Origin: a virus
Virus record (IMG/VR): IMGVR_UViG_3300046001_007835
Location: 1 to 21,725 of that record
Direction: 5' to 3' (one strand)
Length of the DNA: 21,725 bases
Of this stretch, positions 17,056 through 21,463 are shown piece by piece (position 1 is the stretch's first letter; each line of letters starts with the position of its first letter). The translations under genes and the position numbers were made by a program. The notes beneath the pieces were generated by a model. The model saw nothing but the letters and a program-made list of their open reading frames with translations. It had not been told where the DNA came from and ran no database searches.

Positions 17056-17078
17056 TTGTTGCTGTTGTTGTTGTTTTG
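17056..17078 (-). repeat. CAA-rich leader repeat before the ssDNA-binding gene
   Basis: On the minus strand the 52-nt gap before the ATG at 17049 contains repeated CAA triplets with one CAG (about seven units). Such sequence is unstructured and could favour ribosome access where no Shine-Dalgarno site exists. Function is inferred. Confidence 0.6.
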
Positions 17079-17101
17079 TGTTCCGGGCCTTTTGGCCGAA
17101 A

Positions 17102-17425
17102 TTAGTATAGCGGAGGCAGTATTTTTGCCTGCACGCATCCCGCATGGATTTGCACCAGTTGTCTCTCGGTGAGAGTGCTGAGTGCAGAAATTATTTTGCG
17201 CGTCACGGTTTTGCGCTCGAGCACCGTTATGCGGATCGACAGCTCATCGACCGTATTTGACTGGGCGCAAAACCCGCAGTCCTGCGCCTGCCGCTGGATC
17301 CCGCTGCGCATTGTCTTCGGGACGATGAACTCGTCGCCCACTTTGGCGTGAGTCACGAAATATTCCTTCCAGTTCACCCTGCCATCCGAGGTTACTGGCA
17401 CCTGCCCGCTGTTGACGATGATCAT
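17102..17425 (-). CDS. Unknown protein with paired Cys, coupled to a membrane peptide
   Basis: A 107-residue protein containing a CGFC pair near the middle (residues 50-53), a hydrophobic-charged helix (RKIISALSTLTERQ) and a further Cys near the C terminus. CGFC resembles a CxxC redox or metal motif, but one pair is not enough to assign a fold. The start at 17425 overlaps the stop of the 39-residue membrane peptide as ATGA; the longer frame to 17506 is the shadow of that peptide's gene. Confidence 0.65.
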   Translation of the reverse strand: MIIVNSGQVPVTSDGRVNWKEYFVTHAKVGDEFIVPKTMRSGIQRQAQDCGFCAQSNTVDELSIRITVLERKTVTRKIISALSTLTERQLVQIHAGCVQAKILPPLY

Positions 17426-18412: not shown

Positions 18413-20833
18413 ATGAGCAAACCGACCATCGCCGAAATCATCGCCCGGCAGCGAGCCAAACAACTGGCCGCACCACCTGCGACACCCGCACCCCTCATTG
18501 ACTACTACGAAAACGCCGAGGCCCGCGAGGCCCGGTCCACCACAACCCTCGACCAAATCCTCGAGGCGATCCGTATCGGAGATTTTGCAGCACCCATGAA
18601 TCAGGTGCGTGAATTCTGTGCCGCCGGGGATACAAAGGCGGCGGCGCTCGCAAAAAAAGCACTCCCGGCAGTGTCTCTGTCAGGCACTGTCACTGGACTG
18701 CGGAAATCAGCGGTCAGCGACAATCGATTTGTCCACTCCGGCTTCTTGCAGGTCGATATCGATGGCAAGGACAACCCAGAACTCACGCTCTCCGACATCC
18801 GGCAGGTGCTCATCGCTGACCAACGCATCGTTGCCGTGTTCATCTCTCCCTCCGGCAATGGCATCAAAGGCATCGCCCGCATCCACCCAGATGCCACCCA
18901 GCACAAGGCGTCGTTTCTCGCAGTCGAGCGGCACTTCGCCACCGAGCACAGCATCACCATCGACAAGTCGTGCAAGGATCCGGTGCGACTTTGCTTCCTC
19001 TCATACGACTCCGACGCATGGATCGACCAGTCACGCACCGCATTGTTCGAGCCACTCCCGGCTGATGCACCCGAGGTGCTCGAGCTATCCGCCCGTCGCC
19101 GGGCAGAGGTCAGCGCCGAGTGGCAGGCACCCTCCCCCACTCGGATCCGCCGGGCAGCGACCACCATCACTGCCGACGGGCGCATGCTCCTGCACGATAC
19201 ATCCATCAATCTGTCGCTCGACGACCTGCAGGAGATGATCGACTGCATCCCGCGCCCGGATTATCAGGATTGGATTGAGATCTGCAGTGCGGCATGGAAT
19301 ACATTCGGGCAGGATGCCACCGAGATCCTCCAAGGCGCATGGCCGGAAGTCGAGGAGGGCGAATATGCAAAGAAGTTCATCCACCGACTCCAAGATTTTA
19401 CGCAAGGCACACTCTGGCACCACGCGCAGAACAACGGCTGGAAACCGGGAAAGCATCTCAGGGAGGCAATCGATGCCGCCAATGACGTCGCAGCGGCGCT
19501 CACGCCTCCCCCGCCTGCCACGACAGGATCCACCATGCGCTCGTTTGCACCGGGCGATCTCTACTACGACGGACCGACCGGAAAATACCTGTTGCAGGTC
19601 GGTCGTGCATTCCATTCGTTCAGCCGGAAAGCCCCGATCGTCACTGGCATCACCCGGCACCTCGCACCGCAATACAACGACGCCAAGGATCTGCGCAATG
19701 CAGTGGCAGCATCTGTCGCATCCCGCGAGATTGATGGCAGCGTCCAGTGGTATGGCGGCATCGCCGGGCATAAAATCGGACTGACCAACGACTCGTCAGG
19801 CCTGCCGATCCTGATCACCTCCGAGCCAGTGCTACCAGACCCGGCGCCGGGCAATTTCCCGCTGCTCGAGCAGATCATCTCCGACGCATTCCCCAACGAC
19901 ACCGCGCTCGAGATATTCATGGGGTGGTTGTCGTCCCGCTACAAGGCCGTCTCCGCTGCCAAGCATGTCCCGGCACCCATGCTCGTCCTCGCCGGAGAAG
20001 TTAACAGCGGCAAATCACTCCTCGCATGGATCGTCTCTGAGATGCTCGGTGGCAGGACTGCCAACCCGTGGAAATCATGGGCAGGCGATTCCCTGTGGAA
20101 CGATGACCTCGTTGGCGCCGAGCTGCTGCTGATGGATGACTGCGCTGGCAGTCCTGACATCCGCGCTCGCCGGGCTTTCGGTGCGGCATTCAAGGAGGCG
20201 ATGTATCCTCACGCAGTCCAACTCCGCAAACGCAACGTCTCAGCGGTCAGCGTGCGTCCTGTGTGGTCGGTGCTGGTGTGCTGCAACGACACGCCGGAGG
20301 CCCTCAACGTCATTCCTCCGCTCGATCCAGACGTCTCTGACAAGATTGCACTGCTCCATGTCCGCAAGGTGCGTGTCCCGGTGGACACATCAACGGCATA
20401 CGGGTTGCAGCAATTCCAGCAGATGCTCCGCGCCGAGTTCAGCGCATTCGCTCAGGTGCTCGCCGACTGGACTGTCCCGGCTGAGTTGCGCGACTCGCGC
20501 TCAGGCATCCTCGCATGGCGCGATCCTGACCTCCTTGGCAAGGTGGATGCAACATCGCCCGAGAAGGCGCTCCTTGAGCTTCTCCGCATTGCAACCGACA
20601 TCTCCGGCAACCGCTACGACATCTGGAACGATTTGCCATGCACTCTCTCATCGATCGAGGTGCAGGCCCGGTTGTTGCAGTCGTCGAGCGTCGTCAAAAC
20701 GCAGGCGCAGCAGTTGCTCAATTACTCGAGCGCCTGCGGCGTGTATCTCCAAAAGCTCTCACGCAATGATGAGTCAGGCATTTCGATTGCGGTGAAGAAG
20801 AATAACTCCAACCAATACCTGATCGATTTATGA
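18413..20833 (+). CDS. Primase-helicase: VirE-N/primase-like, PriCT-like and SF3-type ATPase domains
   Basis: An 806-residue replication protein. Residues about 85-210 resemble the VirE-N (BT4734-like) domain related to archaeo-eukaryotic primases, with VDIDGKD (114-120) carrying the paired acidic residues, SGNGIKG (147-153) and a KDPVRLCFLSYD segment (188-199). Residues about 270-345 resemble a PriCT domain (DLQEMIDCIPRPDYQDW...CSAAWNTFG). Residues about 490-650 form a superfamily 3-like helicase ATPase, with Walker A GEVNSGKS (528-535), Walker B LLLMDD (571-576) and a sensor-like VCCND (622-626). It is expected to prime and unwind DNA at the origin. A Pro/Ala-rich linker precedes the ATPase part. 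No DNA polymerase is in the window. Confidence 0.88.
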   Translation: MSKPTIAEIIARQRAKQLAAPPATPAPLIDYYENAEAREARSTTTLDQILEAIRIGDFAAPMNQVREFCAAGDTKAAALAKKALPAVSLSGTVTGLRKSAVSDNRFVHSGFLQVDIDGKDNPELTLSDIRQVLIADQRIVAVFISPSGNGIKGIARIHPDATQHKASFLAVERHFATEHSITIDKSCKDPVRLCFLSYDSDAWIDQSRTALFEPLPADAPEVLELSARRRAEVSAEWQAPSPTRIRRAATTITADGRMLLHDTSINLSLDDLQEMIDCIPRPDYQDWIEICSAAWNTFGQDATEILQGAWPEVEEGEYAKKFIHRLQDFTQGTLWHHAQNNGWKPGKHLREAIDAANDVAAALTPPPPATTGSTMRSFAPGDLYYDGPTGKYLLQVGRAFHSFSRKAPIVTGITRHLAPQYNDAKDLRNAVAASVASREIDGSVQWYGGIAGHKIGLTNDSSGLPILITSEPVLPDPAPGNFPLLEQIISDAFPNDTALEIFMGWLSSRYKAVSAAKHVPAPMLVLAGEVNSGKSLLAWIVSEMLGGRTANPWKSWAGDSLWNDDLVGAELLLMDDCAGSPDIRARRAFGAAFKEAMYPHAVQLRKRNVSAVSVRPVWSVLVCCNDTPEALNVIPPLDPDVSDKIALLHVRKVRVPVDTSTAYGLQQFQQMLRAEFSAFAQVLADWTVPAELRDSRSGILAWRDPDLLGKVDATSPEKALLELLRIATDISGNRYDIWNDLPCTLSSIEVQARLLQSSSVVKTQAQQLLNYSSACGVYLQKLSRNDESGISIAVKKNNSNQYLIDL

Positions 20834-21063
20834 AACACAAAACACCACCAAGAGTAGAGTTGCCACCAACACCAAGGACGAACGCAGCATTCGATTTGCG
20901 GCACAACCAGACATGCACCATCACATGGTTTCGCCAAGTGCTCGAGGAAATGGAGCGTGAGTTGATTGCGGCACAGTCGGCACTCGAGGTTGCCAATAAG
21001 CCTCCGACGACACCCCATGTGATCATCGAAGAGGATGCAATCAAGCTCCCCGAGGCAGACTGA
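20830..21063 (+). CDS. Small helical protein coupled to the primase-helicase
   Basis: A 77-residue protein starting at an ATGA overlap with the primase-helicase stop. It has a Pro-rich N terminus (TPPRVELPPTPRTNAAF), a central acidic-amphipathic helix (FRQVLEEMERELIAAQSALE) and an acidic tail. Phages commonly encode small proteins of this shape, but no function is known to me. A terminator follows 20 nt after its stop, making it the last gene of the replication transcript. Confidence 0.7.
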   Translation: MKHKTPPRVELPPTPRTNAAFDLRHNQTCTITWFRQVLEEMERELIAAQSALEVANKPPTTPHVIIEEDAIKLPEAD

Positions 21064-21083: not shown

Positions 21084-21118
21084 CGCCACCCTCGCTCAAC
21101 AGCGTCGGTGGCGTTTTT
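21084..21118 (+). terminator. Rho-independent terminator after the replication genes
   Basis: A stem of CGCCACC (21084-21090) with GGTGGCG (21107-21113), extended inside by CGCT/AGCG around a CAAC loop, followed by five T (21114-21118). It closes the plus-strand primase-helicase transcript. Confidence 0.88.
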
Positions 21119-21120
21119 GG

Positions 21121-21403
21121 CTTAGGGGTCCCCGGCAAAAATTAGGGGTCATTTTTGACCCCTAATGAGCTGCAACCCGCTTAGAATATAGGGAAAACAG
21201 GTGCTCTTAGGGGTCTTAGGGCTATTTCCCACTTCAATAGAAAAAAGTATAAAATAGGGAAATCCCGGGGAATAAAAAAATACCTATGAACTGGCAAATA
21301 CCCCTAAGACCCCTAAGTGATGCTCTGGAACCCTTATAGAATATAGGAAAAATGGACTTAGGGGTCATTTTCCTACCCCTAAGACCCCTAAGCCACCCCT
21401 AAG
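21121..21403. repeat. Iteron-like array, candidate replication origin
   Basis: I count ten exact copies of the octamer TTAGGGGT or its complement ACCCCTAA. Four read plus (starting 21122, 21142, 21207, 21358) and six read minus (starting 21158, 21300, 21309, 21375, 21384, 21395). Several are tandem with a 9-nt period, and one plus/minus pair forms a perfect hairpin. An A/T-rich stretch (about 21234-21290) lies in the middle and could be the unwinding element. A TAGAATATAGG motif (21182-21192, 21337-21347) precedes a TTAGGGGT copy twice. There is no open reading frame of note. Position after the replication protein gene suggests an origin bound by it or by a host or phage initiator. Confidence 0.75.
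21141..21166. repeat. Perfect 11-bp hairpin within the iteron array
   Basis: ATTAGGGGTCA (21141-21151) and TGACCCCTAAT (21156-21166) form an 11-bp perfect inverted repeat with a TTTT loop, made of two octamers in opposite orientation. It has no T run after it, so a terminator role is unlikely. Confidence 0.85.
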
Positions 21404-21463
21404 CCCCCCTGTGCGACCGTCACCGCACCTCCAAACGCACACGGAATGCACCCACATCATTCA

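Follow-up and report, generated by a model that had tools for sequence, protein, structure and literature searches.

The window analysed here, a 21,725-bp IMG/VR virus record (IMGVR_UViG_3300046001_007835) that represents a genome fragment and not a whole genome, carries an array of ten copies of the octamer TTAGGGGT downstream of a primase-helicase gene. This array is very likely an iteron replication origin bound by the C-terminal winged helix of the primase-helicase, of the same working type as the rep-ori of Staphylococcus aureus pathogenicity islands (SaPIs) and phage-inducible chromosomal islands (PICIs). The ten octamers are very probably docking sites of the phage's own copying enzyme. 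The origin thus appears to be of a known, SaPI/PICI kind; its interesting part is the apparent covariation of the iterons with the wing of the enzyme. Few uncultured phages have a known origin and GC skew is uninformative here, so a layout recognisable in the sequence itself is of value as a mark of origins.

Architecture of the octamer array and its proposed reader

The ten exact copies, four on the plus and six on the minus strand, lie at 21122-21402 and span 281 bp. There are no further copies in the 21.7-kb record. By chance, a mean of 0.20 copies is expected in the whole window, and ten were reached in none of 100 shuffles. The count and the two orientations given in an earlier note made from the sequence alone are confirmed. 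An eleventh copy, TTAGGGCT, matches at seven of eight positions. It starts at 21216 on the plus strand in 9-nt tandem with the copy at 21207 and completes the inner left pair. The same spacing separates the iterons at 21300 and 21309 and those at 21375 and 21384. The partial 9-nt tandems around an A/T-rich core that the note described are therefore present, with one more contributed by the imperfect copy.

The array begins with an outer left group of iterons 1 (21122-21129, +), 2 (21142-21149, +) and 3 (21158-21165, −), of which the inverted iteron 3 forms a hairpin with 11-bp arms with iteron 2. A box, TTAGAATATAGGGAAAA (21180-21196, +), follows. It is related to CCTTATAGAATATAGG and is present too in the relatives L009, L026 and L029. 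The inner left pair, iterons 4 (21207-21214, +) and 4b (21216-21223, +), and the inner right pair, iterons 5 (21300-21307, −) and 6 (21309-21316, −), enclose the AT-rich core (about 21224-21298). A second box, TTATAGAATATAGGAAAA (21334-21351, +), leads to the outer right group of iterons 7 (21358-21365, +), 8 (21375-21382, −), 9 (21384-21391, −) and 10 (21395-21402, −). The core, our proposed melting site, falls in the lowest 0.5% of the window's 60-bp stretches by duplex stability, and an alignment of 18 array cores places a conserved TATAAAATAGGG within it at 21248-21259 (+). The box TAGAATATAGGGAAA stands on either side of the core and a related TATAAAATAGGGAAA lies inside it. A near-palindromic box CCTTATAGAATATAGGAAAAA flanks the core on both sides in the window (21180-21196 and 21334-21351) and in L009 (9973-9993 and 10139-10159).

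The earlier note also suggested that the octamer could form G-quadruplexes. One canonical motif does occur, on the minus strand at 21376-21409, but the arrays of ten relatives have none, the octamers are of mixed orientation, and conservation is limited to the tandem and inverted layout. A G-quadruplex or telomere-like element is hardly credible as the role of the array.

The primase-helicase (806 aa; 18413-20833, +) was annotated from Pfam, PHROGs and an AlphaFold2 model. It comprises a BT4734-like N-terminal domain, a weak PriCT_2 match, a superfamily 3 (SF3)/D5-type helicase with a weak DUF5906 match, and a predicted C-terminal winged helix. In a Foldseek search the model (mean predicted local distance difference test score 73) best matches the C-terminal region of the NrS-1 polymerase (6lrb, E 7e-10), followed by the African swine fever virus PrimPol and D5/E5 helicases. 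AlphaFold2 on two alignments predicts the winged helix at residues 735-806 (20615-20830, +), with helices at 747-754, 762-768 and 774-783 and a two-stranded wing at 790-804. The isolated domain gave no confident match in the PDB, so the label of winged helix rests on the order of secondary structure elements and on the model. We propose this domain as the iteron-binding part of the enzyme.

In the mechanism that we envisage, the primase-helicase would bind the octamers through its winged helix and assemble on both inverted tandem pairs, probably in the form of two facing rings by analogy with SaPI Rep. Were the array used in this way in vivo, the SF3 helicase would melt the AT-rich core and the primase domain would begin new strands there. 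The outer iterons are a feature of the window's clade and probably serve as extra binding sites or to control dosage.

Conservation of the layout among relatives

Viral loci related by their primase were collected in steps, first 16, then 36, then further; a search for primase relatives in bacterial genomes found none. In about 20 relatives, a tandem pair of repeats with a C4/G4 box, an AT-rich core and an inverted tandem pair lie downstream of the same primase-helicase. The array is conserved as architecture and not as sequence. The octamer is clade-specific (ACCCCTAA, ACCCCAGCA, TCCCCGCA, ACCCCGCA, ACCCCGTA and ACCCCTAG), and the repeat word by locus is TTAGGGGT in L009, TGCTGGGGT in L026, L028 and L031, TGCGGGGAC in L029, TGCGGGGT in L035, L038, L040 and L042, TACGGGGT in L017, a C5 version in L039, and CTAGGGGT in L048, L051 and L054. 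The pitch is 9-10 nt across relatives, the gap between the pairs mostly 80-104 nt and the AT-rich core ~80-105 nt long. The 18 cores align as GGGGT, a T-rich segment, AAAAGTA, TATATAAGAG, AAACA and ACCCC, and rank among the least stable stretches in most loci tested. The plan recurs in five further loci (L010, L088, L078, L097 and L099), where the C-runs are degenerate or longer.

The layout stands out from chance by two measures. For ten loci with a full array (the window, L009, L026, L029, L035, L017, L038, L040, L042 and L051), 100 shuffles of each stretch downstream of the primase never attain the count of its best 7-mer cluster. A scan for the layout itself, defined as a 7-mer tandem pair of 8-12 nt pitch with an inverted pair 50-130 nt off, gives a single hit per locus in nine loci, whereas 40 shuffles of each locus give no hit. 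The circular relative G003 (IMGVR_UViG_3300042356_000517), a complete genome of 40,100 bp with a 127-bp exact terminal repeat, carries 10 of its 11 CCCCAGCA copies within one 320-bp stretch. What the earlier note proposed to look for, the array after the primase in relatives, is found in a stronger form: most of them retain the position, the pitch, the inverted arrangement and the AT core, and the octamer changes by clade together with the C-terminal wing of the primase. Both observations support the note's view of the array as a candidate origin of the iteron type.

At the DNA level, none of the known phages searched matched the array. Apart from L126 (the L009 record), the matches of an IMG/VR scan for ACCCCTAAGACCCCTAAG were all tandem pairs or simple repeats that lack the primase. 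A scan for CCTTATAGAATATAGG returned L126, L131, L133, L137, L143 and L130 from the window's clade, the last sharing its C-terminus and array with L026; matches outside the clade look like chance.

The genes around the array bear on two alternative functions. If the repeats were a packaging site (cos or pac), they would be bound by the small terminase subunit, as the R sites of lambda cosB are. In L017 and L018 the next gene beyond the array indeed encodes a Nu1-like small subunit, and a large subunit of the GpA type comes after it. However, the array lies 17.1 and 22.7 kb from terS in circular G003, and relatives of the same layout have three families of large terminase (Terminase_6N, GpA and TerL_ATPase/nuclease). 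The array accompanies the primase whichever of these the phage carries, and varies in sequence together with the primase wing. As it follows the primase across unrelated terminases, a role in packaging is very improbable.

The second alternative is an operator or promoter array, in which a repressor or activator, possibly the primase, would bind the octamers and control a promoter within the AT-rich core. The core contains a TATAAAAT-like element, and in the L051, L017 and L020 types a gene on the same strand starts soon after the array. In the window's clade, by contrast, a terminator-like hairpin precedes the array, and the first clear genes beyond it lie on the minus strand (10784-11149 in L009 and 8443-9139 in L026). 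There the array lies between convergent operons, and an upstream operator is therefore unlikely. A promoter scan yields no more than about chance, the layout persists while the neighbouring genes change, and autoregulation by the initiator would be compatible with an origin. Overall, we regard an operator as quite unlikely.

Covariation of the wing and the iterons

The loci L017 and L038 (the latter the same record as L018) provide a natural experiment, in which an initiator and the many sites that it binds would have switched specificity together. Their primases are 98-100% identical in all domains but the wing, where identity falls to 68%. Their iterons differ as a set, GACCCCGC versus GACCCCGT, and the AT-rich middle is identical. 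To judge from these sequences, the joint change of the word and the tip of the enzyme is an unusually clear case of iteron-initiator covariation.

Across 575 variable columns of the primase alignment, the best association with iteron type is at a wing position (residue ~798) with a score of 0.83; the next column reaches 0.63. Histidine at this position goes with CCCCGC (7 sequences), aspartate with CCCCGT (L017 and the distant L050), valine or asparagine with CCCCTA, and arginine with CCCCAG. L097 and L099 contribute one more iteron class to the comparison. The score was reached by none of 200 label shuffles, and by one of 200 with 13 less redundant sequences, but the association was found post hoc, kinship inflates such scores, and the wing alignment is gapped. 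We treat the link between residue and base as a lead, not a code.

The concerted change also bears on a further alternative, a stem-loop (cruciform) origin in which the initiator recognises the structure of the inverted arms and not the octamer sequence. PMC4234260 describes stem-loops downstream of the replication gene as proposed origins of pRN1 and BIP-1, that of BIP-1 being large. In the window (z -4.3) and in L029 (z -7.1) the inner arms can pair into a long stem. In contrast, the arms of L015 and L020 are unequal in pitch (10 and 9), L051 folds no better than shuffles, and extra copies lie outside the stem in the window, L009, L026 and NrS-1. Since the octamers change in concert, the data point to a protein that reads duplex sequence, and recognition of a stem-loop seems unlikely.

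Several observations weigh against an iteron origin read by the winged helix. Neither GC skew nor cumulative skew has an extremum at the array, where the earlier note had suggested looking for a switch, in the window and five relatives, including circular G003. The window contains no DnaA box (TTWTNCACA), which is relevant only if the host DnaA is used. Five loci (L033, L034, L036, L058 and L114) have no array in the downstream DNA examined, and arrays of the L047 and L052 types do not exceed shuffles by 7-mer count and are recognised by layout alone. L078 has the wing residue of the CCCCGT type and misfits the association because its iterons are degenerate; the residue-to-base reading is unconfirmed out of sample.

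Comparison with known origins and neighbouring features

Among isolates, the same architecture occurs in NrS-1, BPP-1, Staphylococcus phage IME1365_01 and Mycobacterium phage Bryler. NrS-1 (AB746912; L150), whose polymerase is the best structural match of our helicase region, likewise has octamers right after its primase gene, although the octamer is another and the pitch ~12 nt. Eleven of its 12 TTACACTT copies lie at 17063-17376 in both orientations, starting 12 bp after the primase stop, and surround an AT-rich core. The published recognition sequence of the NrS-1 primase, TTTGGTTA (PMC8718748), has its sole exact match at 17198-17205, within the array. Since a genome of this kind is expected to contain one or two matches by chance, only the position of the match is informative. 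PMC7102993 reports the recognition sites as two copies in the centre of the genome that may be the origin. The parts of PMC7102993 and PMC8718748 available to us do not describe the array as iterons. We consider 17063-17376 a candidate origin, which the layout thus supplies in a phage that is in culture and whose replication protein has a solved structure.

In BPP-1 (L149), a TTTGCCTCG-type repeat occurs twice at 26615-26711, followed by an AT-rich core and the same repeat inverted twice, with a 9-nt pitch; the exact 9-mer is found nowhere else in the genome. BIP-1 is near-identical to BPP-1, and its stem-loop region is the repeat region of BPP-1. BPP-1/BIP-1 and pRN1, whose initiators have archaeo-eukaryotic primase (AEP), SF3 and winged-helix domains, share with our system a putative origin downstream of the replication gene. 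By BLASTP, however, the primases are not detectably similar, and the pRN1 origin is reported as a single stem-loop without iterons. At 7-mer stringency the layout was not seen with more distant primases (elemo phages, P12024S, phi46:1, Panino and two Manatee Spring records) or in JCL1032, P185, BT1, Rollins and RR1-A.

The closest described parallel is the SaPI/PICI rep-ori, in which an AT-rich stretch between two sets of short iterons immediately follows the gene of the replication helicase (PMC6092414, PMC7581432). SaPI origins are read by the C-terminal domain of Rep, and the C-terminal domain of Cch2 from SCCmec binds its putative origin (PMC7581432). The earlier note called this architecture uncommon in described phages, which is only partly right given these published origins and the four isolates. 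Here, too, the origin would be linked to and downstream of the helicase gene, with two iteron sets around an AT-rich stretch. Linkage to the replication gene holds in ~20 relatives whatever the other neighbours, and for an AAA+/SF3 initiator the helicase part is identified by Foldseek matches to NrS-1 and D5, and the C-terminal winged helix is predicted. In contrast to SaPIs and PICIs, the phages are tailed and have their own terminase, primase and helicase are joined in one protein, and the octamers have a C4 core, to which the window's clade adds outer iterons and TATAGAATATAGG boxes. The window is not itself such an element, a satellite needing helper packaging, as the record encodes its own terminase, along with a weakly supported candidate for the small subunit and a protein resembling a connector.

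In lambda and iteron plasmids, iterons beside an AT-rich region are recognised by a phage or plasmid initiator (O in lambda), which recruits the host helicase. The array likewise adjoins an AT-rich region, but helicase and initiator would here be one protein, and the window lacks a DnaA box. P4 uses two separate sites, ori and crr, whereas the octamer cluster occurs once in circular G003 and in the window. The P4 alpha protein combines primase, SF3 helicase and winged helix in one chain and binds origin repeats (as cited in PMC4234260), much as we propose here, but its primase domain is of the bacterial type (PMC4234260).

A broader reading is that inverted tandem iteron pairs flanking an AT core, placed immediately behind the gene, serve as a general origin in tailed phages whose initiator is a single primase/SF3-helicase/winged-helix protein, NrS-1 and BPP-1 included, and that the wing holds a short residue-to-base code. 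This code would centre on one position, with histidine for CCCCGC and aspartate for CCCCGT, and origin specificity would switch between close relatives. Descriptions of the NrS-1 and BPP-1 origins have been limited to recognition sites and a stem-loop, respectively. We put this generalisation forward tentatively, as possible but on balance doubtful.

The earlier note placed the array directly after the primase-helicase and its terminator. The array is downstream and preceded by a terminator-like hairpin, but this hairpin and a small open reading frame intervene. The frame (77 aa; 20830-21063, +) overlaps the primase stop (20833) and has no PHROGs match. The hairpin with its T run (21085-21118, +; hairpin 21101-21115) is supported by scan-level evidence, and similar hairpins, read by eye, precede the arrays of L009 and L026. 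The contig G002, whose terminase and N-terminal half of the primase are identical (100%) to those of the window, extends ~11.4 kb further left.

Other repeats were observed near the primase in several relatives. Downstream of the primase in L033, L034, L036, L050 and L058, a minus-strand helix-turn-helix-like frame carries several TAGCGCCGA repeats at and upstream of its start and may be an autoregulated repressor; in four of the five loci no origin array is recognisable. L016, which has no downstream array, carries seven tandem copies of the 9-nt unit ACCCCTATG at 1902-1956, ~4 kb upstream of the primase, which could be a relocated iteron set. Tandem repeats of 7 nt (CCGGTTG) and 11 nt (CCGCGGTCGTC and ACCCCGCGGTC) occur downstream of the primase in L012 (8543-8578 and 11491-11535) and L010 (5813-5851), besides a degenerate origin-like core.
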